Program-made: the position numbers and the translations under genes
Notes under the pieces: generated by a model
Told to the model about the DNA's origin: nothing
What the model saw: only the letters and a program-made list of their open reading frames with translations
Database searches by the model: none
In this document: in pieces, positions 1,007-18,239 of the stretch
Layout: every line of letters begins with the position of its first letter
How positions within the stretch are numbered: the first letter of the stretch is position 1
Assembly (NCBI GenBank): GCA_902546725.1
Contig: CACCLB010000009.1
Span: 1 to 64,000 of the forward strand
Direction: 5' to 3'
DNA: 64,000 nucleotides
Origin: an uncultured Bacteroidota bacterium
GTDB taxonomy: Bacteria > Bacteroidota > Bacteroidia > Flavobacteriales > Flavobacteriaceae

Positions 1007-1959
1007 CAATTGTCGTGTTCTATAGTTTTGTAGGCATCAATTATTTTTTTGACCAAAGGATGACGGATGACATCCTTATCGTCGAGATAGATTATTTCAA
1101 TACCCTTAGTGTTTTTTAAAATCAAGAGTGATTCTTTTAGTCCTGAGATCATTCGTCTTGGAAGGTCAATTTGACCGGGGTCTCCCGTCAGGAGAAACTT
1201 AGCATTTTTACCCATACGTGTTAAAAACATTTTCATTTGGGCATGAGTAGTATTTTGAGCTTCATCCAAAATGACAAATGCATTGTCTAAAGTCCTTCCA
1301 CGCATAAAAGCAAGAGGGGCAATCTGTATGGTACCTTTTTCAATGTATCCCTGGAGTTTTTCACCAGGAATCATATCTCTTAAGGCATCATAAAGAGGCT
1401 GCATATAAGGATCGAGTTTTTCGTTTAAGTCACCGGGAAGGAAGCCTAAATTTTCTCCTGCTTCAACAGCGGGTCGCGTGAGTATAATCCGTTTGACTTG
1501 TTTTTCCTTAAGTGCTTTTACTGCAAGTGCAACACCCGTATAAGTTTTTCCTGTACCCGCTGGACCTACTGCAAAAACCATATCATTTTTGTGCATAGAC
1601 TCCACCAAACGCTTTTGATTATAGGTTTTTGCTTTGATGATTTTTCCTCCTACGCCGTGAAGAATCTGGGTTTCAGTTCCCCCATCGAGCTCCGGATTGT
1701 CTTCAGTACCCACCAAAACAATACGCTCAATAATCTCATCGTTCAGGATATTAAATTTTCCGAAATGAGCGATGAGCATGTTAACACGCTTGCTGAATTC
1801 TGAAAGGATGCTATCTTCACCGTAGGCCTTTAGTGTATTCCCACGAGCTACAATTTTAATTTTTGGGAAGCAAGTTCTTAATTTGGCTATATTCGCGTTT
1901 TGATCCCCAAAAAACTCTTGAGGATTTACTTCTGACAGGTCAATTTTTATATCATTCAA
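1006..1959 (-). CDS. phoH: PhoH-family ATPase (PhoH-like protein)
   Basis: A cytoplasmic P-loop ATPase of the PhoH/YbeZ family, linked in other bacteria to RNA metabolism and ribosome-associated functions; its exact role here is not known. Visible features are an N-terminal KH-like region (residues ~25-95), Walker A GPAGTGKT near residue 135, Walker [10 protein letters not shown] near residue 230, and the conserved [11 protein letters not shown] stretch. Length (317 aa) is normal. It is first in a two-gene unit with purC and is transcribed away from the divergent SAM hydroxide adenosyltransferase, with a shared spacer of about 100 bp. Confidence 0.95.
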
Positions 1960-1981
1960 AGGCTACTCGGTTAAAATGAAT

Positions 1982-1989
1982 TATTTTTG
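1982..1989 (+). promoter_or_regulatory. Bacteroidota -7 promoter element
   Basis: TATTTTTG matches the Bacteroidota -7 consensus TAnnTTTG and lies about 70 bp ahead of the preferred start of the next gene. No clear -33 TTG is seen at the usual spacing. Because transcription would begin near 1996, the site argues against a start at 1987 for the downstream gene. Confidence 0.4.
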
Positions 1990-2058
1990 TTAATGACCGA
2001 TATGGTCGCGTATAAAAATAGAATAATTTTACGTAAATCATTAGAGAAAAATAACTTT

Positions 2059-2889
2059 ATGGTCCTGGTAACTTTAACGACAGATTTTGGACATAAAGAC
2101 TATTCGATATCCGTCATCAAGGCGGCACTACTGGATCAGATACCCGATGTGAAGATTATCGATATCACACATGAAATTAGTCCGTACAATCCTTCTGAAA
2201 CGGCTTATGTACTTAAAAATGCTTACAAAGCATTTCCCAAAGGGAGTATCCATATCGTTGGCGTAGAGTCGGAATATACCCCAGAAAATATTCATTTGGC
2301 CATGCAATTGGAAGGTCACTTTTTTATTGGTGCAGACAATGGTATTTTTTCATTAATAAAAGAGGAAATCAAGCCTGAAAAAGTGGTGGCTATTAACATT
2401 CATAAAACGGTTAATAGCTCTTTCCCAGTGCTAGATGTGTTTGTACAAGTTGCAGCTCATATCGCCAGAAAAGGAACACTGGAGGTCATCGGAAATCCCA
2501 TTGATAAAATTAAAGAACTTACCGATGTAAAGCCCGTTATCAACCAAGACGGCAATCAAATCTTAGGAAGTGTAATCTATGTCGATAATTACGGCAATGT
2601 GATTACCAACATTACTCAAAAGTTGTTTAAAGAAATAGGCAAGTCCCGACCTTTTACTATTAATGCGCGTACGTTAAAGTTTAGGGAAATTCACCATAGT
2701 TACAGTCAAGCCATAGACTTTAGCCAACCCAAAGAAAACCGAGAGGAAGACGGCAAAAAACTGGCTTTGTTCAATGCGGCTGGACATTTGGAATTGGCCG
2801 TTTACAAAAGCAACCCCAATACCGTAGGGAGTGCGAGTTCACTTTTTGGATTGGATTATAGAGATTTAATCAATATTCAATTTGAATAA
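2059..2889 (+). CDS. S-adenosyl-L-methionine hydroxide adenosyltransferase family protein (DUF62)
   Basis: Family members split SAM into adenosine and methionine using hydroxide; they are relatives of fluorinases and chlorinases. The N-terminus reads TLTTDFGHKDYSISVIKA, the family SAM-binding start with the conserved Asp, and the C-terminal domain begins around VIYVDNYGNVITNI. The open frame extends upstream to 1987, but the family motif sits right after the ATG at 2059 and a likely -7 element covers 1982-1989, so I chose 2059. It lacks the chlorinase/fluorinase context and nothing suggests halogenation. It ends just before gldF. Confidence 0.88.
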   Translation: MVLVTLTTDFGHKDYSISVIKAALLDQIPDVKIIDITHEISPYNPSETAYVLKNAYKAFPKGSIHIVGVESEYTPENIHLAMQLEGHFFIGADNGIFSLIKEEIKPEKVVAINIHKTVNSSFPVLDVFVQVAAHIARKGTLEVIGNPIDKIKELTDVKPVINQDGNQILGSVIYVDNYGNVITNITQKLFKEIGKSRPFTINARTLKFREIHHSYSQAIDFSQPKENREEDGKKLALFNAAGHLELAVYKSNPNTVGSASSLFGLDYRDLINIQFE

Positions 2890-2890
2890 T

Positions 2891-3625
2891 ATGTGGACCA
2901 TCGCCAAGAGAGAATTGCGTTTGTATTTTAGTCAGCTTACTGGTTATCTTATCGTTGGTGGTTATCTACTTATCACTGCATTAAGCCTTTGGTTTTTCAA
3001 TTCACCCTATAATTTACTGAATACAGAGCTGGGTGATTTCAATCCGTTCTTTGAATTCAGTCCTGTTTTATTTCTCTTTTTGGTTCCAGCTCTTAGCATG
3101 AGAACCTTTTCGGAGGAATTTGCTCAGGGAACATTTGAATTGCTATTGACCAAACCCTTGCATCATTATCAGATTTTTGGCGGAAAACTCTTAGGGGTTC
3201 TTTTGATTTTATGCATAGCACTGCTCCCTACATTAATGCATGCATTTACACTCAGCGACATATTACAAGGGGGAACTCAATTGGATTGGGGAGTCTTGGC
3301 TTGTTCGTATTCAGCATTGCTTTTACTTGCTTTACTTTTTACAGTAACCAGTATGTGTGCCTCTTTAATTTTTCAAAGTCAGGTAGCTTCTTTTCTACTT
3401 GGAGTAGTTGCTTGTTTTATTCACCTTTACTTTTGGTCGTTTATCGCTGATTTTGCACCTAGTGTTCTTTGGTACAAATGGATCAATAGTTTAGGAGCTT
3501 CAGTGCATTACGGCAATCTTAGTCGAGGGATAATCGCTTTGGAGGATGTGTTTTATTTTTTTGGTATACTGCTCACTTTTTTTCTCACCGGTGTTGAACT
3601 CATTCAAAAAAAGAAGCGTAAATGA
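2891..3625 (+). CDS. gldF: Gliding motility ABC transporter permease GldF
   Basis: Integral membrane permease of the GldAFG ABC transporter, needed in Flavobacterium for gliding. The sequence shows an ABC-2 permease: a short cytoplasmic start (MWTIAKRELRLYF), then about six hydrophobic segments, and the LSMRTFSEEFAQGTFELLLTKP coupling region common in this family (shown here in part: RTFSEE, ELLLTKP). The ATG at 2891 is preferred to an upstream TTG (2882) that overlaps the previous gene. It overlaps gldG by 4 bp (ATGA). The ATPase GldA is not in this window, as in other flavobacteria where gldA is separate. Confidence 0.93.
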   Translation: MWTIAKRELRLYFSQLTGYLIVGGYLLITALSLWFFNSPYNLLNTELGDFNPFFEFSPVLFLFLVPALSMRTFSEEFAQGTFELLLTKPLHHYQIFGGKLLGVLLILCIALLPTLMHAFTLSDILQGGTQLDWGVLACSYSALLLLALLFTVTSMCASLIFQSQVASFLLGVVACFIHLYFWSFIADFAPSVLWYKWINSLGASVHYGNLSRGIIALEDVFYFFGILLTFFLTGVELIQKKKRK

Positions 3626-5274
3626 AGGCATTTAAAAGACCTCTTATCGCACTGGTGCTCAGTCTTATTTTGATGCAAGTCAGTGAACAATTCAGCCTGC
3701 GTTTTGATTTAACTGTAGATAAGCGATACAGTCTTTCTGAAGCAACTCTTACTCAATTAAACAGTCTCGACAAGCCGCTACGTATAGATGTTTTTTTGAC
3801 TGGTGACCTACCCGGGCTTTACAGAGACTTTAGAGGAGAACTGGATGTCTTTCTCAGTCAACTGGAATATGCGACAGACAAATTGATTATTCAATACAAC
3901 GACCCCTTTGATATTGGCTCAAATGAAGCTGTGGTAAGAGAAATGCAACAATACGGTATGAATCCTGAAATTGTGATTGAAAATAAGGACGGTCAACGGA
4001 ATGAAAATCTAGTATTCCCTTGGATGATTGTCAACTATGGAGAGGTTTCCGAAAGGGTTTCACTACTCAGCAAACAACTCGGGGACACAGATCGAGATAA
4101 AATCAGTCGCTCTGTACAACAAATGGAATACCTCATCATGGATGGAATTGGTAAAGTGACTAGGGAAACAAAATCAACCATAGCCGTTTTAACTTCTCAC
4201 CAAACTTCTGAAAACAGGAAACTGGCTGATTTTCTTCAGTCATTGAGACCCTACTACAATCTGGCTTCATTTGACCTCAAAAATCCAGAAATCAGTCCCG
4301 AGCAGAGTCTTACAAACTTGAATCGATTCAAAACTCTTATCATAAGCAATCCTATTGAAGCCTTTACTCAAAGCGAAAAATACATATTAGATCAATACAG
4401 CCTTCAGGGAGGCGGACTTCTTTGGCTGGTAAATGGAGTTGGTATAGATAGAGACAGTCTATTCAACAGTGCAGGAAAAACTTATGGCTTTCCATTAGAG
4501 TTGAATTTGGACGACTATTTTTTTAATCAAGGAATACGTATAAATAAAGCCTTAGTACAAGATCTTTATTGCGCCCCTATTGTTTTGGCAAATGGTTCTG
4601 AAAACAACACCCAATTCATCCCCTACCCTTGGCCTTACTATCCGCTCCCAAAGCCAGAATCCAACTTGATTGGAGAACGCATTGGACCGGTACTCACTCA
4701 ATTTGCCAGTTCAATTGATGCACTAGAAAACAGCATGAATCAATCGGTATTGCTTCAAACCTCAGGATTTACCAAAACGGCAGCTGTACCGGTAGTAATT
4801 TCATTAGATCAAGCCACTGAAAAAATTCAACCCAGTGTATACGATGAACCTTCCAAAATATTAGGAATATTGACCGAAGGGAAACATAAATCACTGTTTG
4901 CAAACCGCATCTTACCCTTTGAAAACACTGAACACTTGAATGAAGGACAGACCAAAAGCATTGTTTTTGGTGATGGGAATCTAGCTGAAAATCAACTTGA
5001 TAAAGGCGCACCACTCCAATTGGGGTACGACAAGTGGACCAGTAATTTTTATGCCAATAAAGAGCTATTAATGCATGCGGTTCATTACCTGAGTGGAAAT
5101 TTAGATGGACTTCTTATTCGTCAAAAAGAATGGAATTTAGCCTATTTAGACGCTCAAAAAATTAAAGCAAAAGGTGTGCTTTGGAAAGTTATGATGTTGC
5201 TTACTCCGCTAGTAGTCGCATTGGGTTTTGGGTGGTTGAATCAAAGAGGAAGAAGTAAACATTTAGGAGCTTAA
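3622..5274 (+). CDS. gldG: Gliding motility-associated ABC transporter component GldG
   Basis: Partner of GldF. The protein has an N-terminal membrane helix (residues ~7-25), a large periplasmic GldG/IFT52-like domain, and a C-terminal helix (LLTPLVVALGFGWL) followed by a short basic tail. The 550-residue length is normal for GldG. The start overlaps the end of gldF by 4 bp, so translation is coupled. The last visible residues (RGRSKHLGA) are cytoplasmic. The precise substrate of the transporter is unknown in the field. Confidence 0.93.
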   Translation: MKAFKRPLIALVLSLILMQVSEQFSLRFDLTVDKRYSLSEATLTQLNSLDKPLRIDVFLTGDLPGLYRDFRGELDVFLSQLEYATDKLIIQYNDPFDIGSNEAVVREMQQYGMNPEIVIENKDGQRNENLVFPWMIVNYGEVSERVSLLSKQLGDTDRDKISRSVQQMEYLIMDGIGKVTRETKSTIAVLTSHQTSENRKLADFLQSLRPYYNLASFDLKNPEISPEQSLTNLNRFKTLIISNPIEAFTQSEKYILDQYSLQGGGLLWLVNGVGIDRDSLFNSAGKTYGFPLELNLDDYFFNQGIRINKALVQDLYCAPIVLANGSENNTQFIPYPWPYYPLPKPESNLIGERIGPVLTQFASSIDALENSMNQSVLLQTSGFTKTAAVPVVISLDQATEKIQPSVYDEPSKILGILTEGKHKSLFANRILPFENTEHLNEGQTKSIVFGDGNLAENQLDKGAPLQLGYDKWTSNFYANKELLMHAVHYLSGNLDGLLIRQKEWNLAYLDAQKIKAKGVLWKVMMLLTPLVVALGFGWLNQRGRSKHLGA

Positions 5275-11025: not shown

Positions 11026-12060
11026 TTAATTCAATTGGGTTAAAGTTGTTAACACATAATCGTGCTGGGCATCGGTGTAATCACGATGAGTCACCATTCG
11101 CAATTTCCCTTTTCCAAGGCTGATAAAAAGAATTCCTTTTTCTCTCATCTTATGTATGAATTCAGTTTCGTTTTGGTCTGGCTTTAAGGAGAAAATTACA
11201 ATATTTGTTTCAACTGGAGCTACCGATTGTACAATCGTTGAGGCCTCTAATGCATCCGAAAGCGCTTTTGCTTTTTTGTGATCTTCTTTTAGGTCCGCCC
11301 GATGATGATGTAAGGCATAAGTAGCCGCAGCTGCCAAATAACCTGCCTGACGCATACCTCCTCCAAATACTTTCCGTATTCTTAAAGCTTCTTCTATAGC
11401 ATCTTTAGAACCTACTAAAACGGAACCTACCGGACATCCCAATCCTTTGCTAAAACAAAGGGAAATGGTGTCAAATACAGCACCGTAGTCTTTAGGACTC
11501 TCATGTGTGACCTCAAGAGCGTTCCACAATCGTGCGCCATCCAGGTGTAAGGCCAATTGATGCTGATCACAAAGGGCTTTTATTTTTTTGATTTCAGCAA
11601 AATCATATACTGCTCCCCCACCCTTATTTGTGGTATTCTCTAGACTTACTAAGGCTGTTTTTGGGCTGTGGTAAAAATCAGGAGCATTGATGGCTTCCTC
11701 AATCAAGTCTGCAGAGATCCTACCTCGATCGCCCTCCAGTAAACGGCAGGAAACTCCGGAGTTAAAACTGACGCCACCCCCTTCGTAGTGGAAGATATGG
11801 GAATATTGATCACAAATGAGTTGTTGTCCCGGTTGAGTGTGGATTTTAATAGCTGTTTGATTCGTCATGGTTCCTGAGGGGAAAAAGAGCGCTACCTCTT
11901 TTCCAAAAAGACTGGCGACTTCTTCTTCTAATGCATTGACCGAAGGATCTTCTTTAAAAACGTCATCACCCACGGCTGCTGAAAACATGGCTTCCAGCAT
12001 GCCTTTTGAGGGCTTGGTAACCGTATCACTGATTAAATTGACTTCCATAGGATTATTCAT
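11026..12060 (-). CDS. ltaE: Low-specificity L-threonine aldolase (GLY1/LtaE family)
   Basis: PLP enzyme that splits threonine into glycine and acetaldehyde. Key stretches are VNLISDTVTKPS at the N-terminus, LHLDGARLWNA around the cofactor Asp, and the Schiff-base Lys in CFSKGLGCPVGS. The open frame runs on to 12174 inside the metalloprotease gene, but family members start immediately before VNLISD, so the ATG at 12060 (8 bp overlap with the upstream stop) or at 12048 is right. It sits between two peptidase genes in the same operon. Confidence 0.93.
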   Translation of the reverse strand: MNNPMEVNLISDTVTKPSKGMLEAMFSAAVGDDVFKEDPSVNALEEEVASLFGKEVALFFPSGTMTNQTAIKIHTQPGQQLICDQYSHIFHYEGGGVSFNSGVSCRLLEGDRGRISADLIEEAINAPDFYHSPKTALVSLENTTNKGGGAVYDFAEIKKIKALCDQHQLALHLDGARLWNALEVTHESPKDYGAVFDTISLCFSKGLGCPVGSVLVGSKDAIEEALRIRKVFGGGMRQAGYLAAAATYALHHHRADLKEDHKKAKALSDALEASTIVQSVAPVETNIVIFSLKPDQNETEFIHKMREKGILFISLGKGKLRMVTHRDYTDAQHDYVLTTLTQLN

Positions 12061-14488
12061 CACAAGAAAACGAACCGATAGGAGAACCGTCGGGTAAGCG
12101 TTTGGACACAGGAGGAACAAAGTCTTCCGGAAAGTCAAAATAATTGTCGATCTCCATACGGTAAACTTCTCCAAATCCTATATCGTCTTGTCCTGCCAAC
12201 CACTGATCTAAACTTACCAATTGCTCATGTACCAATGCTTTGACTATGGCATTGGCATCAGGATGCTGTCCCAAATGCATCATTTGCTTGAGCAAATTGG
12301 CTTTGACAATATCATTTAGTTGTTGTTCATTGGGTACTCGATACCTCATCTTAAACAAGGAAGTAGTCAAGTAGTTTAAAGTTTCTTTTAAACCCAACTG
12401 ATTGGTGTCAAAACCGTATTGGGTAACCAATCGATTGGCGCGTTCCGGATGGAGTAGCATTCCTAACAAAGCGTTACTCAAGCTATTTGCCACTCCTAAA
12501 TAATCAAAGGCTACACCACTTTGGGAAAGAAAGTTTTCCCTCGTTCTCGGGTTGGAAAACGACCTCGGCGGCAATAATGCCCTCAAATGTTCGGGTATTT
12601 TTAAAGCTTCTGGAGCTAAGGTGCTGGAAAATGCTTTAAGCGCATTGCGCTGAGTTGTCGCATCTACTGTGCTGGTAGCGTATGCAATCGGACCTTTGAC
12701 CCCATAGTCGTAATCCACTCCGCCGATCAGTTTTACTACTGCCTCAACTTGATAACGGTGTAAAAGGTACATGGGTACCATACGATCTTCCAAAGTACTG
12801 TAAGCTTCTCCTTCTCTCAGATGATCCAAAGACAAGTGTTCCAAAGCCAAAGCGCGTATTTGCATCAATTTACTCAGCTCTTCATAAGCCGAACTGCCGT
12901 TGTCCCACAAATGAGCCAAAGGATGTGCACCCCCTATGGGTCGCGCATCCCGATCACTGATAAATCGGTGACCATCACGACTGCTTTGTTCGAGTAGCTG
13001 ATTTAGTGCCTCAGTTTCATTTGTTCCCTCTGGAAAGTCACTGTAAGCATAGGCAACACTGACTTTGTCCCAAGAACCAATTCCTGTTTCATAAGCCTCT
13101 GAATAATCAATCTTACCGTTTTTAATGTTGAGATAAGGGTGCGGATAATCCATAACCGAGGACCGCTCCTTGGCACTAGCTGCAAAATTGTGTGCAAAGC
13201 CTAGAGTATGCCCTATTTCATGAGCGGAAAGTTGACGGATTCGCGCGAGTGCTAATTCCAAAGCTTGTTCGCTTTTATCGTTGCCCGCTTCAAAAGGGGC
13301 TTCCGTTAAGCCTAAGGCAATCATAAAGTCTTGACGTATACGAAGACTTCCCAAACTCACATTACCTTTGATGATCTCACCAGTTCTGGGATCTGCCACA
13401 CTGGAGCCGTAACTCCAACCTCGAGTAGAACGGTGAATCCACTGGATGACATTATAGCGAACATCTAAAGGGTCTGCATCGTCAGGTAGCATTTTGACTT
13501 GAAAGGCATCTTTAAAGCCAATGCTTTCAAAGGCTTGGTTCCACCATACGCCTCCCTCCAATAAAGCAGAACGAACGGGTTCGGGAGTTCCGTTGTCTAG
13601 ATAATAAACAATAGGCTCTACGGCTTCAGAAACTGCTGCTGAAGGGTCTTTCTTTTCCAGCCGATGGCGATAGACTAGCTGCTTTTTAGTAGAAGTACTG
13701 ACCGGAGTAGTATAATCGTAATAGGTCATCGCATTGACCCCAGAGCGAGGATCAAAAGCTCGTGGGCTATAATCACGATCCGGAAGGGCAACAAAAGAAT
13801 GATGCTGATGAACCGTAACCGCGTCCGGTGTTGGTGTCACAGATCGTAGCTTACTGCCTGTACTTTCCCCCGCAAAGGTCAGCAGCATATCCATTTCAAT
13901 ATTTTTGGGAAAGGCTTTGGTACGATCGAGATAAACCGCTGAACGACTTTTATCGATTTTATAAGTCCCTTCTTTAAGTTGTTTAAGGCGTATGGAAACC
14001 CCATGAGCATCCTGGAGTAAAAAAGGAGTCAAATCAATTAAATACGCGTCGTCTAAAGTCTCTACTATAGGAAAGCCGAATAAGACAGATTTAGCAAAGG
14101 CCTCTTTAATGGAACGCTGTTCCAAGGGGTTGTCCGAAGTGGAACGATAACGCAGATTGGGCTGGATAAGCAAAAGCTTATCCCCCGCTTTGGAAAAAGA
14201 GACTACACGTTCATTACCCAACTGCCCGCGATCTAGACCGATATCGTTATTGCCTATCCCCTGACTCAGGCTGTTGACATATAAAAATTGCTGCTCATTT
14301 TTGGGTACTTTAAGGTAAATCTTATCGCTAGCTTCGTGATAATAAAAATCAAAAAAGCCCTTGTAGGGACTTGCTTGCTCGGTAATGGAGCCTTTTTGCG
14401 CTGAGTTGTTTTTGCTTTTTTTGGATTGAGCCTGAACGCTAAAAACCATCATCATCAAACCCAATATCAGACTGTAAAACCTATTCAT
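12053..14488 (-). CDS. Secreted zinc-dependent metalloprotease (DUF5117/DUF4953 type)
   Basis: An 811-residue exported protein with a signal peptide ending near VFSVQAQS. The zinc site HEIGHTLGFAHNF (an HExxHxxGxxH pattern) lies near residue 420-430, which places it with the metzincin-like DUF4953 proteases. Upstream of it is the large DUF5117-type domain. Such proteins are common in Bacteroidota periplasm, but natural substrates are unknown. It heads a three-gene operon with threonine aldolase and the S9 peptidase, suggesting peptide or amino acid recycling. Confidence 0.88.
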   Translation of the reverse strand: MNRFYSLILGLMMMVFSVQAQSKKSKNNSAQKGSITEQASPYKGFFDFYYHEASDKIYLKVPKNEQQFLYVNSLSQGIGNNDIGLDRGQLGNERVVSFSKAGDKLLLIQPNLRYRSTSDNPLEQRSIKEAFAKSVLFGFPIVETLDDAYLIDLTPFLLQDAHGVSIRLKQLKEGTYKIDKSRSAVYLDRTKAFPKNIEMDMLLTFAGESTGSKLRSVTPTPDAVTVHQHHSFVALPDRDYSPRAFDPRSGVNAMTYYDYTTPVSTSTKKQLVYRHRLEKKDPSAAVSEAVEPIVYYLDNGTPEPVRSALLEGGVWWNQAFESIGFKDAFQVKMLPDDADPLDVRYNVIQWIHRSTRGWSYGSSVADPRTGEIIKGNVSLGSLRIRQDFMIALGLTEAPFEAGNDKSEQALELALARIRQLSAHEIGHTLGFAHNFAASAKERSSVMDYPHPYLNIKNGKIDYSEAYETGIGSWDKVSVAYAYSDFPEGTNETEALNQLLEQSSRDGHRFISDRDARPIGGAHPLAHLWDNGSSAYEELSKLMQIRALALEHLSLDHLREGEAYSTLEDRMVPMYLLHRYQVEAVVKLIGGVDYDYGVKGPIAYATSTVDATTQRNALKAFSSTLAPEALKIPEHLRALLPPRSFSNPRTRENFLSQSGVAFDYLGVANSLSNALLGMLLHPERANRLVTQYGFDTNQLGLKETLNYLTTSLFKMRYRVPNEQQLNDIVKANLLKQMMHLGQHPDANAIVKALVHEQLVSLDQWLAGQDDIGFGEVYRMEIDNYFDFPEDFVPPVSKRLPDGSPIGSFSCDE

Positions 14489-14801
14489 AATGCCGTGTAT
14501 TAGTTAAGCTAAAACTAGTAAAAACTTTTAAGACCTTTAGGGGGTAGGTGTTTAAACTTATTAACGAGCGTATAGCAAAAGTTAAACCATATTGATAAAC
14601 AAAAAAATATCGGTCATTATAGAGTTTGAGTTCTATTTTTTTATAGATTGATCCATACTGTTGGAAAAGTTATGGGGGGTAACGGCCTAGTATAACCGTC
14701 AGTTACGGGTTAATTTTCGGTTTGGCACAGACTTTAGCAATTTCGAGTGGATTTAGTCGAATCCGCCGAAATTACGGTTATACATTGTTGTGCAACGTTT
14801 T
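14489..14801. other. 313 bp spacer at the left edge of the accessory island
   Basis: No convincing gene. The right two thirds hold a long structured palindrome (14690-14783, listed separately). The left part (14489-14689) is AT-rich, contains the upstream region of the metalloprotease gene, and shows no promoter that matches the consensus well. Confidence 0.6.
14690..14783 (-). repeat. attC-like structured palindrome B
   Basis: A 94 bp element lying just after the stop of the DUF3644 gene. Its ends are a perfect 10 bp inverted repeat (GTATAACCGT at 14690 and ACGGTTATAC at 14774). Within it is a nested hairpin: AATTTCG (14739) with CGAAATT (14767), and GGATT (14749) with AATCC (14760). Read on the gene strand the ends are GTATAAC and GTTATAC, each one base off the integron R-box consensus RYYYAAC / GTTRRRY. 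Size, nesting and position behind an ORF fit an attC recombination site. Chance palindrome or a non-integron element is possible. Confidence 0.5.
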
Positions 14802-15857
14802 TTATTTATATAAACTGTTGTATTCTTCTTCTTTTGCCATTTCCTCAATCAAATAATCAGCCCAATCTTCTGTATAAAGATAAGTGTCGTTCGGTTGGTC
14901 GTAAACACAATATTCAGGCTTAGTCAGTTCAGGATTTTGATTCCCGTTTTCTGGTCTAACTTGATATTTTTTCCAACACCTTGTATGCATGTCCATATTA
15001 AATCTGTCTTTTTCTTTTCCATTCCTAGTGATTTTAGGATTACCTAAAGCTGTTTGGACTTTTTCCACTACTATTCCTGGCTTGAGTAAATCTTTATTCG
15101 TTACTGGCACTTGAACAAATTTGTTTTTAACTAATGCGGCAACTCGATTCACGTTGTTTTTTTGAGTATCATCTAATTTATCATAAGCTACAAATTGAAT
15201 TGGCAAAGTATTTTTTGTTTGGTGGTTAGCAACTTGAATTAAGAAAGCTTTGAAGGCATATTCGCCACTATTAATAATGCCAGTCGTAATTCCACTTCGA
15301 TAAGCTTTTATAAAATCTACGATGGGTTTAGTAGACGGATTTGCAATTATGGCATTATTCAAACTTTTTGATGAGGGATATAGTTGAAGTGCAAACGATA
15401 ATGACTCTCTTAAGCAATATTTAGTTCCAAATTCCTTTTCCATTATTTTGTCATAATTCAAGAGCATTGCTTGGCATTCAGCAAAAATATCGGAATCAAT
15501 CTCTGGGATTGATTTGTGCTCTACCATATTGCGAAGAGGAACGAAAAACTCCAAATTTTTTCTAATCGGATTATTAACATCTGCACCAAAATATTTTGTG
15601 ATACAAGTGCTTAATCCCCAATAACAATAATCTCCATCCTTTTTTACGAATCTGTTATTTTTCTTGTGATATGGTTTCTTTTTTTGTCGAAAGAATATTG
15701 CGTGGAATAAAGCTATCCAAGAAATTACCATTAAAACAATATATCCGCCTGACTTAAATTTGATTGCAGGTTTATTGTACGTTTCCACAGCAAGTAAAGC
15801 AGAGTCTCTTGACTTTTCTAAACACTTCTTTACTGCTTTTGGTAATCCTCTTGACAT
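14802..15857 (-). CDS. DUF3644 domain protein with HEPN-like motif
   Basis: A 351-residue protein whose N-terminal half (SRGLPKAVKKCLEKSRDSAL, then a hydrophobic helix at ~38-56 and the DGDYCYWGLSTCITKYFG region) matches my memory of the DUF3644 family. LRNMVEH (R109-H114) fits the Rx4-6H pattern of HEPN ribonucleases. DUF3644 proteins occur in mobile and defence-like contexts, but no activity is established to my knowledge. The hydrophobic helix is probably part of the helical bundle rather than a membrane anchor. The gene lies alone between two attC-like palindromes and is AT-richer than its neighbours, which suggests acquisition. Confidence 0.75.
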   Translation of the reverse strand: MSRGLPKAVKKCLEKSRDSALLAVETYNKPAIKFKSGGYIVLMVISWIALFHAIFFRQKKKPYHKKNNRFVKKDGDYCYWGLSTCITKYFGADVNNPIRKNLEFFVPLRNMVEHKSIPEIDSDIFAECQAMLLNYDKIMEKEFGTKYCLRESLSFALQLYPSSKSLNNAIIANPSTKPIVDFIKAYRSGITTGIINSGEYAFKAFLIQVANHQTKNTLPIQFVAYDKLDDTQKNNVNRVAALVKNKFVQVPVTNKDLLKPGIVVEKVQTALGNPKITRNGKEKDRFNMDMHTRCWKKYQVRPENGNQNPELTKPEYCVYDQPNDTYLYTEDWADYLIEEMAKEEEYNSLYK

Positions 15858-15885
15858 AGTATTATGCGGTTGGTTTTAAATGTTG

Positions 15886-15935
15886 CACAACGTTTTGGCT
15901 AAATTGCGTTTTAATGCAGTTTAGGTATTGTTGTG
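15886..15935 (-). repeat. attC-like structured palindrome A
   Basis: A 50 bp element between the two island genes. Outer arms are CACAAC (15886) and GTTGTG (15930); inner arms are CTAAATTGC (15899) and GCAGTTTAG (15916), with one mismatch and an 8-base loop. On the gene strand it reads CCACAAC...GTTGTGC, close to the integron R-box pair. It starts about 17 bp after the stop of the upstream gene, as a cassette attC would. It shares the CAACGTTTT motif with palindrome B. Confidence 0.5.
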
Positions 15936-15952
15936 GGGCGATTTTATTTTTT

Positions 15953-16660
15953 TCATTTGTAATAGTAGTACCAATTACTCTCATAATTATTATCAAAGTT
16001 CTCTTTGCTGTCTAGGTATACAGAGAAGAACTCTCTTTTAAAATACCCGAATTTATCATGCCGACTGAGTAAATCAAAATATTTATCCGTCCACTTTTTA
16101 TGTTCCTCCGAGTTCTCGTACTTTTTTACTTGTTCATCTGTGTAGAGGAAAATTGTTGTTCCTGAGAAAGCTCGTGAAATTTCCCAAATGTCTTTATTGT
16201 CTAATTCGGCTTTAAGTTCTTTTACTTTCTTTTCTGGAACACTTTCGTTCGCTTCTATTCGAGCTATGGATTCAAAATCCCCATAAATCACCCAAATATA
16301 TTCAGTTTTATATATTGAAGTTGCTTGCTTCTTGAATAACCCAAATAATCCACTGTCGGGGATTAGTCCTTGTTCTTTTAAGGTCTCTTTGAATTTCTTG
16401 CCAATTGCTTTCTGTTTGCCAGAGTCAAAGTTAAATCCATTGGGACCGTTGAATTGAGCCTTTTCTTTCTGGTGTTCAAAGCATATCTCTAATCTCGGGC
16501 GGTTTCCTTTGTCGATTGTGTCGTAGAAAATATTGATTGTCTTGACACCATATGTTTTGTCAATCCGTTCTGCAAGCGGCTTGAATTCGGGTTGCATTAC
16601 CTTCTTTCCAAGCATAATCTGCTTAGTCTCTTTGTAGTCTTTGTCAGAAGGCATTATCAT
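15953..16660 (-). CDS. Hypothetical protein in the cassette-like island
   Basis: I do not recognise the family. The 235-residue protein is soluble and charged, without signal peptide or membrane helix. It has a Lys-rich middle, a central segment ending FLYTDEQVKKYENSEEHKKW, and an aromatic C-terminus (ESNWYYYYK). Possible starts are the ATG at 16660 or 16654. It is single, AT-rich, on the same strand as the DUF3644 gene, and is followed by an attC-like palindrome, so it looks like a captured gene cassette. Function cannot be given. Confidence 0.7.
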   Translation of the reverse strand: MIMPSDKDYKETKQIMLGKKVMQPEFKPLAERIDKTYGVKTINIFYDTIDKGNRPRLEICFEHQKEKAQFNGPNGFNFDSGKQKAIGKKFKETLKEQGLIPDSGLFGLFKKQATSIYKTEYIWVIYGDFESIARIEANESVPEKKVKELKAELDNKDIWEISRAFSGTTIFLYTDEQVKKYENSEEHKKWTDKYFDLLSRHDKFGYFKREFFSVYLDSKENFDNNYESNWYYYYK

Positions 16661-17131
16661 AATTGGTACTGTAGTCTTTTTTCAAATGGCACACAACTAG
16701 TGAATATGTACACCCTTAGGTGTGTTTATTTCTTTTATATTTTACAGTTTGTTCAACAATACATCCCAAATTAGCATGTATTGTACCACTCTTTTTTTGG
16801 TAATTGGAGTCCAACGGGTTTTTAATAGTTCCTTTCTCCTGAGTTAAAACTTGAAAATAACCCACTGTATTTTTAAAAAAACAACTACCAACATGCCTTT
16901 AATAGGCTGTAAAAGACCAGTTGTATTAATCGAAAAGTTAGACAAGCAAAAATTGACTGGACTTTGCTGTTTGTATAAAATAGAATTAAGCCTAAGGCTT
17001 TTCATTTTTATTGATTTGGGGGTTAAGAATTTCTAATATACTATTTTTAGACTTAAAAACAAACCCAGTATTTTTAGGCTGAATGCAAGGTAGAAGAATA
17101 TTATTCTGCTATTTTTGTTTAAATAAGAAGT
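16661..17131. other. 471 bp spacer at the right edge of the accessory island
   Basis: AT-rich sequence without a convincing gene. It contains a short palindrome ACACC-CTTA-GGTGT (16710-16723), a GTTGTGTG motif on the minus strand near 16690 that resembles the R-box of palindrome A, and the prfB promoter region at its right end. An open frame of 61 codons at 16851 has no recognisable content and was not accepted. Confidence 0.5.
17110..17117 (+). promoter_or_regulatory. -7 promoter element for prfB
   Basis: TATTTTTG matches TAnnTTTG and lies 15 bp before the prfB ATG, giving a very short leader. A -33 TTG at the standard spacing is not evident. Confidence 0.4.
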
Positions 17132-18239
17132 ATGATCAGCAACGAGCAGTATAAAGATTTAATGGAACGCCTGGGTGCCTTAAGGCGGTATCTTTGACAT
17201 TGATGCCAAGCGGATCGAAATCCAAAACCAAGAAGAAAAAACCCTAGCCCCCAACTTTTGGGACGACCCCAAAAAAGCCGAATTGCATATGAAGCAAATG
17301 CGGAGTCTTAAAAAATGGGTCACTGACTACGAATTTATCAAACAAGGGACTGACGATCTTGAAGTTTTAATGGAGTTTGAAAAAAGTGGGGATGCCGATA
17401 CCGAAGAGGTGACCGCGCATTACCAAAGTCTATTGACTCGTCTACAGGATGTGGAATTCCGCAACATGCTTTCTGAAGAAGGTGACGACCTCAGTGCCGT
17501 ACTGCAAATCACAGCTGGTGCTGGAGGGACAGAAAGTTGCGATTGGGCTGCCATGCTGATGCGAATGTATCTGATGTGGGGAGAAAAACAAGGCTTTAAA
17601 ATCAAAGAGCTCAACCATCAAGCTGGAGACGTAGCCGGCATCAAAACCGTTACCCTTGAAATCGAAGGAAACTATGCCTTTGGCTGGCTAAAAGGGGAAA
17701 ACGGGGTTCATCGACTGGTGCGGATTTCACCTTTTGACAGTAATGCCAAGCGACATACTTCCTTTGCTTCCGTCTATGTTTATCCATTGGTTGATGAAAG
17801 TATAGAAATCGACATCAACCCTGCAGATTTTACCTGGGAAACCATGCGTGCCAGCGGTGCTGGTGGGCAAAACGTCAACAAGGTAGAAACGGCTGTTCGG
17901 CTTCGACACCATCCTACAGGCATCATCATTGAAAATTCAGAGACACGTTCCCAACTCGAAAACAAAAATAAAGCCATGCAATTGCTTCGTTCTCAGCTGT
18001 ACGAAATCGAATTGCAGAAAAAAATGGCCGCACGTGACGAAATAGAAGCTTCAAAAAAGAAAATAGAATGGGGATCACAAATCAGAAATTATGTGATGCA
18101 TCCCTATAAATTGGTAAAAGATGTGCGTTCCCAGTACGAAATGACCGATGTAGATGCAGTAATGAACGGACAAATCGATCCTTTTTTAAAGGCGTATTTA
18201 ATGTCTGTAGGACAAGAAGAAACCAAAGAAGAACTCTAA
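17132..18239 (+). CDS. prfB: Peptide chain release factor 2, with programmed +1 frameshift
   Basis: RF2 releases the finished peptide at UGA and UAA codons. A short first frame starts at the ATG at 17132 ([21 protein letters not shown]) and hits TGA at 17195-17197; the rest is read after a +1 shift that skips T17195, giving join(17132..17194, 17196..18239). The site is CTT TGA C with a Shine-Dalgarno-like AAGGCGG just upstream, the classic RF2 self-regulation signal. The downstream part holds the catalytic GGQ in [15 protein letters not shown]. The UGA recognition segment and full length (about 368 aa) are as expected. Confidence 0.97.
17192..17198 (+). promoter_or_regulatory. prfB programmed frameshift site
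   Basis: CTTTGAC with AAGGCGG 5' of it. When RF2 is scarce the ribosome pauses on the in-frame TGA and slips +1 on CTT to continue; when RF2 is plentiful translation stops after 21 codons. Seen directly in the sequence; mechanism is established for bacterial prfB. Confidence 0.95.

Follow-up and report, generated by a model that had tools for sequence, protein, structure and literature searches.

The island at 14489-17131 of the window (the whole 64-kb stretch of DNA analysed) is a real integrase-less integron remnant, and very probably a degenerate chromosomal integron built by an IntI-related integrase that lacked the IntI-specific domain and was later mostly lost. At the level of sequence, the island possesses attC sites, an attI-like leader, cassette ends and the remnant of an integrase gene, and it is absent from relatives. 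Its parts follow one another in a single direction, from the 3' end of the integrase gene through attI and gene2 with its attC to gene1 with its attC. In the proposed history, a patch-less integrase (without the IntI-specific domain, i.e. the patch or I2 helix region) would have joined folded attC sites to attI at G|TT, and the later loss of most of its gene would have left the array frozen. The putative integrases to which the window leads form a lineage that lacks a defining trait of IntI, stands beside attC arrays, and is missed by searches relying on an IntI cut-off.

Genomic context, genes and attC sites of the island

The island lay between a metalloprotease gene (12053-14488, minus strand; Met-zincin, PF16313) and prfB, filling the gap, in a genome assembly of 1.70 Mb, 42 contigs and 75% completeness. 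As a first, sequence-only reading of this DNA had described, it contained two minus-strand genes, gene1 (14802-15857, 351 aa) and gene2 (15953-16660, 235 aa), with a lower G+C content (33.0% and 36.2%, respectively) than the two flanking genes (44.1% and 43.6%). Gene order was not conserved at the same locus in the genus, both genes being absent from all 28 loci compared (both neighbours were visible in 27). The gap measured 197-554 bp in 18 of these loci; another had 1.1 kb containing short frames, and the nearest relative (G021) carried there a 259-aa frame without Pfam match. Homology of the flanks to G021 stopped near 14640 and 17094, giving an insert of about 2.45 kb. In seven relatives (L043-L045, L047, L051-L053) a frame of 619-622 aa bearing ABC ATPase domains (Pfam scan of L043 only) lay in the same gap; neither the window nor its nearest relatives had it. 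On the other side, prfB apparently needed a +1 shift (17133-17283) at CTTTGAC, a motif present in 9 of 9 relatives inspected, which we take to be the known RF2 frameshift site.

The product of gene1 belonged to DUF3644 (PF12358, E 1.7e-48), classed among the HEPN families (PMC3710099), and possessed a HEPN-type motif, RNMVEH, at residues 109-114. It also matched the PADLOC profile PDC-S19, a phage-defence candidate, with 455.8 bits, so a role in phage defence may be supposed. The product of gene2 fell into no known family, with nothing in Pfam or PADLOC at E 1 and nothing above cut-off in NCBIfam; its AlphaFold model (mean pLDDT of 88) had a weakly KH-like N-terminal half. Eighteen relatives of gene2 (38-89% identity) were found in the genome collection, in several Bacteroidota families.

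The attC sites were searched with a covariance model of three stems (outer, middle and inner), built from 28 aligned sites of gene2 loci (among them L064, L067, L078 and L080), none of them from the window. With default filters, the 64-kb window gave no more than two matches (E up to 10), one behind each gene: the attC of the gene1 cassette, last in the array (14677-14793, minus strand, 117 nt; 49.4 bits, E 1.1e-8), and the attC of the gene2 cassette (15885-15936, minus strand, 52 nt; 25.1 bits, E 0.0024 over 64 kb), these E-values being rough by the tool's own account. With the filters off, the next-best match in 14000-17500 reached 8.1 bits. The covariance search proposed by the first reading thus scored two sites and bore out its attC-like palindrome behind each gene. 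The R-box ends needed correction at the first site: R'', L'', L' and R' boxes were present according to the model, but the outer palindrome noted there was the L''/L' arm, and the R boxes lay just outside it, at 14787-14793 and 14677-14683. Folding of 14690-14800 gave a z of -3.1 on the plus strand (the bottom strand of the attC) and -2.0 on the minus strand. By eye, the gene1 attC was similar to an attC at L064:7397-7528, and the gene2 attC to the one behind the 89%-identical relative of gene2 in L064.

The first cassette (15891-16696, minus strand) comprised gene2 and its attC as far as the G of the R' box, and its start and leader were common, by eye, to the cassette of the same relative in L064; its ends were complementary at only 9 of 13 positions, which was counted against the integron reading. 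The second cassette (14683-15890, minus strand) contained gene1 and its attC and likewise ended at the G of the R' box. Its two ends paired at 12 of 13 positions, a value reached by no other of the 21,941 GTT/AAC pairs lying 300-1500 nt apart within the window. Elsewhere in Bacteroidota, the covariance model placed attC sites at 8 of the 18 gene2 loci, some of these sites having been used for the model, and found none at the other 10 (counted against). A scanner run on the gene strand returned six attC sites in L064, nine in L067, four in L078 and five in L080.

The attI leader and the integrase gene tail

A 112-bp leader at 16689-16800 was 90% identical to that of a second array in this genome (G000:C7), and the shared stretch stopped at the cassette boundary, placing a putative attI at the head of the window array. 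The attI core (16697-16724, minus strand) contained an imperfect inverted repeat (CACACC/GGTGTa, 5 of 6 positions), with crossover presumed after the G at 16697. G025 and G036 had related leaders at their cassette boundaries; allowing at most three mismatches, the leader occurred in one of the 38 genus genomes, in two copies. The second array, itself an integron remnant (L118, G000:C7:42000-50000, positions 1620-5109, minus strand), had nearly the same attI leader and two attC sites (39.1 and 37.1 bits). One of its cassettes carried two genes, of sigma-70 type and for an alpha/beta hydrolase, and the other a serine-hydrolase (beta-lactamase-fold family) gene; each cassette had an attC.

The 3' remnant of a patch-less integrase gene (16716-16892, minus strand) contained 58 codons that could be aligned, all within a single open frame, which closed with TAA (16718-16716) inside the attI leader. 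In a tblastn search with the integrase tail of G036 (L113), the window matched at 16892-16719 with 57% identity over 58 aa (E 5.8e-16). In G036 itself, a similar leader comes after the integrase reading frame, and the same tail matched the G000:C7 leader over 36 residues (E 1.3e-4). The integrase core HMM had no match in the window, where only the tail of a genus integrase was matched (counted against), and full-length integrase frames adjoined attC sites in relatives (e.g. G019 and L122, the latter from Flavobacterium frigoris). As leader and integrase tail precede the cassettes, the window array would be an integron whose integrase gene was cut to its end. Further integrase pieces were observed in the genus at L113/L230 (G036:C83), L231 (G025:C167), L234 (G012:C26) and L237 (G007:C29). 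Those in G036 and G025 directly preceded an attI and a cassette, and the integrase seems to have decayed in the genus on more than one occasion.

The first reading had seen no integrase and had proposed a cluster of cassettes without one. Its absence holds for an intact gene, the cluster retaining the 58-codon 3' remnant alone, and a search of the genome (75% complete) found no IntI above the NCBIfam cut-off; together with the two attC sites and the absence of both genes from the 28 same-genus loci, this agrees with a cassette cluster lacking a working integrase. The attI and the integrase gene tail, both of which had been missed, make this reading more specific and point to a degenerate integron, not to loose cassettes.

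Patch-less integrases and attC arrays in Bacteroidia

No IntI above the NCBIfam cut-off was found in the 38 genus genomes or in the 14 genomes with gene2 relatives. These genomes possessed instead tyrosine recombinases lacking the IntI-specific domain, which the IntI model matched at both ends and not in the middle, and none of them exceeded the TIGR02249 cut-off (38 genus genomes, 14 gene2-relative genomes, and the six proteins tested). The catalytic lysine was separated from the HxxR motif by 64-66 residues in 48 of the 51 patch-less integrases in which both motifs were found, compared with 106 residues in 29 of 30 canonical IntI of the same phylum and 70-72 residues in 5 of 7 Xer proteins. 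The catalytic residues were present in a 10-row alignment. The open frames of the patch-less integrases spanned 284-649 codons, mostly with an N-terminal extension. In L122, L123, L124 and L128, about 100-300 residues precede the SAM-like domain, without Pfam match at E 0.01, and residues 1-75 of L124 were predicted to be alpha/beta.

In the phylogenetic tree, patch-less integrases and IntI were grouped apart from XerC/D and two archaeal XerA with a support of 99/98, and the patch-less integrases alone with 89/93. A tree joining the patch-less integrases and archaeal XerA in one clade was not rejected (p-AU 0.077), and five of the six patch-less integrases tested scored higher with NF040815 than with TIGR02249, both results being counted against the main reading; three of the six were above the NF040815 cut-off. 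The patch-less integrases thus resemble XerA, XerC and XerD (NF040815) in the absence of I2, a similar core length and the catalytic set, but differ from them in grouping with IntI and in adjoining attC arrays. NCBI names the XerA-type family NF040815 'site-specific tyrosine recombinase/integron integrase'; this double name already covers such proteins, so that the idea is not foreign to annotators. The integrase lineage was unreported in the open-access full texts searched (preprints outside scope), and PMC8352920 contained no mention of Bacteroid, Flavobacteri or patch.

Comparative sequence data associate attC sites with the patch-less lineage well beyond the window, with a shared polarity. 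A list of 150 places, spread over 134 of 295 Bacteroidia genomes, supplied 40 integrases, hand-picked from its upper part with one per genome. The 20 control stretches set against them were taken from these same genomes (15) or from additional integrase-bearing genomes (5). An attC (E at most 0.05, within 7 kb or to the contig end) was found at 21 of the 40 integrases and at 2 of the 20 controls (Fisher p = 0.0017). One of these controls (L211) lay on the contig of a counted integrase, apparently within its array, and the genome of the other (L222) possessed several patch-less integrases. Two of the 21 loci (L187 and L188) had identical integrases and leaders. Of 55 attC sites, 54 were directed away from the integrase and one toward it (counted against); the nearest attC was codirectional with the integrase in 16 of the 21 loci and divergent in 5. 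The first cassette start could be located by complementarity (at least 9 of 13 positions) in 19 of the 21 loci, 18 of them within 252 bp of the integrase frame. Among the 19 integrase loci without attC, 12 had less than 1.4 kb of downstream contig, and the 7 that lacked this excuse were counted against. In an earlier set, attC sites were present at 7 of 14 integrase-type loci, two of which overlap, and at none of 7 XerC/D loci; L127, a locus of this set with a similar integrase beside a Y2_Tnp transposase gene, had no attC (counted against).

At the genome level, attC sites at E 1e-4 were detected in 208 of the 295 Bacteroidia genomes, with only 11 candidates scored per genome. They occurred in 139 of 149 genomes with such an integrase (134 from the list and 15 added by eye from a table at E under 1e-60) and in 69 of 146 genomes without (p = 3e-19). 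The 69 genomes with attC but without such an integrase at the level counted were held against the association, and its p-values are generous because the genomes are related.

The association might also arise if the patch-less recombinases were Xer-like bystanders near the arrays and a canonical IntI, acting in trans or since lost, had moved the cassettes. This is unlikely, although the higher NF040815 scores favour it, as does the existence of canonical IntI in the phylum (above cut-off in 105 of 395 genomes of the phylum sample; in the window's own class, G501 alone among the matches listed). Cassette boundaries and attI-like sequence lay directly beside the patch-less integrases, the polarity of the attC sites was constant, the XerC/D loci were devoid of attC, and neither the genus genomes nor the gene2-relative genomes yielded an IntI above cut-off. 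Recombination would have been carried out by the patch-less integrase itself.

The structure of the sites was inspected in 101 attC (28 of the model, 52 of the 55 from integrase loci, 19 of the genus and 2 of the window); these counts are less independent than they look, the sites being related, and the comparison with canonical attC covered 4 sites only. Folding gave a more stable bottom strand in 75 of the 101 sites; the patch-less integrase may use that strand. The L helix was uninterrupted over at least 8 pairs in 54 of the 101, leaving no room there for extrahelical bases. Position 11 of the cassette start was an A in 79 of 80 sites, opposite a T in only 2 of the 80. The unequal spacer, together with a conserved pair of non-Watson-Crick type, may determine the choice of strand in place of extrahelical bases. 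On balance, we favour an integron lineage proper to Bacteroidia, in which an I2-less, IntI-related integrase would recombine folded attC sites that need no extrahelical bases, with the unequal central spacer and the A at position 11 determining the strand.

Relation to known integrons and recombinases

With two attC sites, cassettes in one direction and no intact integrase, the island resembles a CALIN in the sense of IntegronFinder, for which two attC are the present minimum (PMC9024848). It differs from one in having kept its attI leader and a truncated copy of the integrase gene, and in having attC sites of a lineage whose integrase is non-standard. One proposed origin of CALIN is off-target insertion (PMC8618304), by which an integrase encoded elsewhere would have placed the two cassettes at a non-attI (attG-like) site that was never an integron. 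The lack of an intact integrase gene nearby speaks for it, but the repetition of the leader at a second array and, above all, the integrase gene tail preceding the first cassette largely refute it and make it very improbable here. Inverted repeats after genes are common and the Rfam scan of the window returned tRNAs only, yet the reading of the palindromes as terminators or REP-like repeats, with both genes arriving by another route, is refuted by the model matches, the complementary cassette ends, the attI leader and the gene2 relatives with attC in other species.

The degenerate integron of the window and its lineage share with chromosomal integrons carrying IntI an attI-like site, R and L boxes in attC, G|TT boundaries, an array polarity away from the integrase and a position in the tree next to IntI. 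In contrast, the integrase of the lineage lacks the IntI-specific domain and has a frame of variable length that is mostly N-terminally extended, the nearest attC is mostly codirectional with it (16 of 21), and about half of the L stems of the attC sites are uninterrupted. The integration of CTXphi by XerCD offers a parallel, as it also uses a folded stem without extrahelical bases and recombinases devoid of I2 (PMC4792948); unlike the present arrays, CTXphi has neither cassettes nor attI and relies on the Xer enzymes of its host.

The I2 domain is held to enable integron integrases to use folded single strands, and passages of the same source state that its deletion abolishes IntI1 function, that it is found in no other protein and that intermediates are lacking (PMC7790495). 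The IntI-specific domain is likewise listed among the defining characteristics of archaeal IntI (PMC9668308), and an early survey retained only matches with the domain (PMC2426708), so that patch-less integrons would be booked as integrase-less clusters. A widespread I2-less lineage beside attC arrays makes the I2 requirement directly testable. If confirmed, it would represent a second way of recombining cassettes as single strands, or the condition that preceded the gain of I2 by IntI, and would account for the reports of hardly any complete integrons in Bacteroidetes. Since attC sites were found in 208 of the 295 genomes sampled from the class, its cassette pool, which includes defence candidates like gene1, may be greatly underestimated. 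As a separate observation, one stretch beside a patch-less integrase (G1040:C2:2000-60000; L187, L211) carried attC sites on one strand over more than 50 kb, apparently as one large array.
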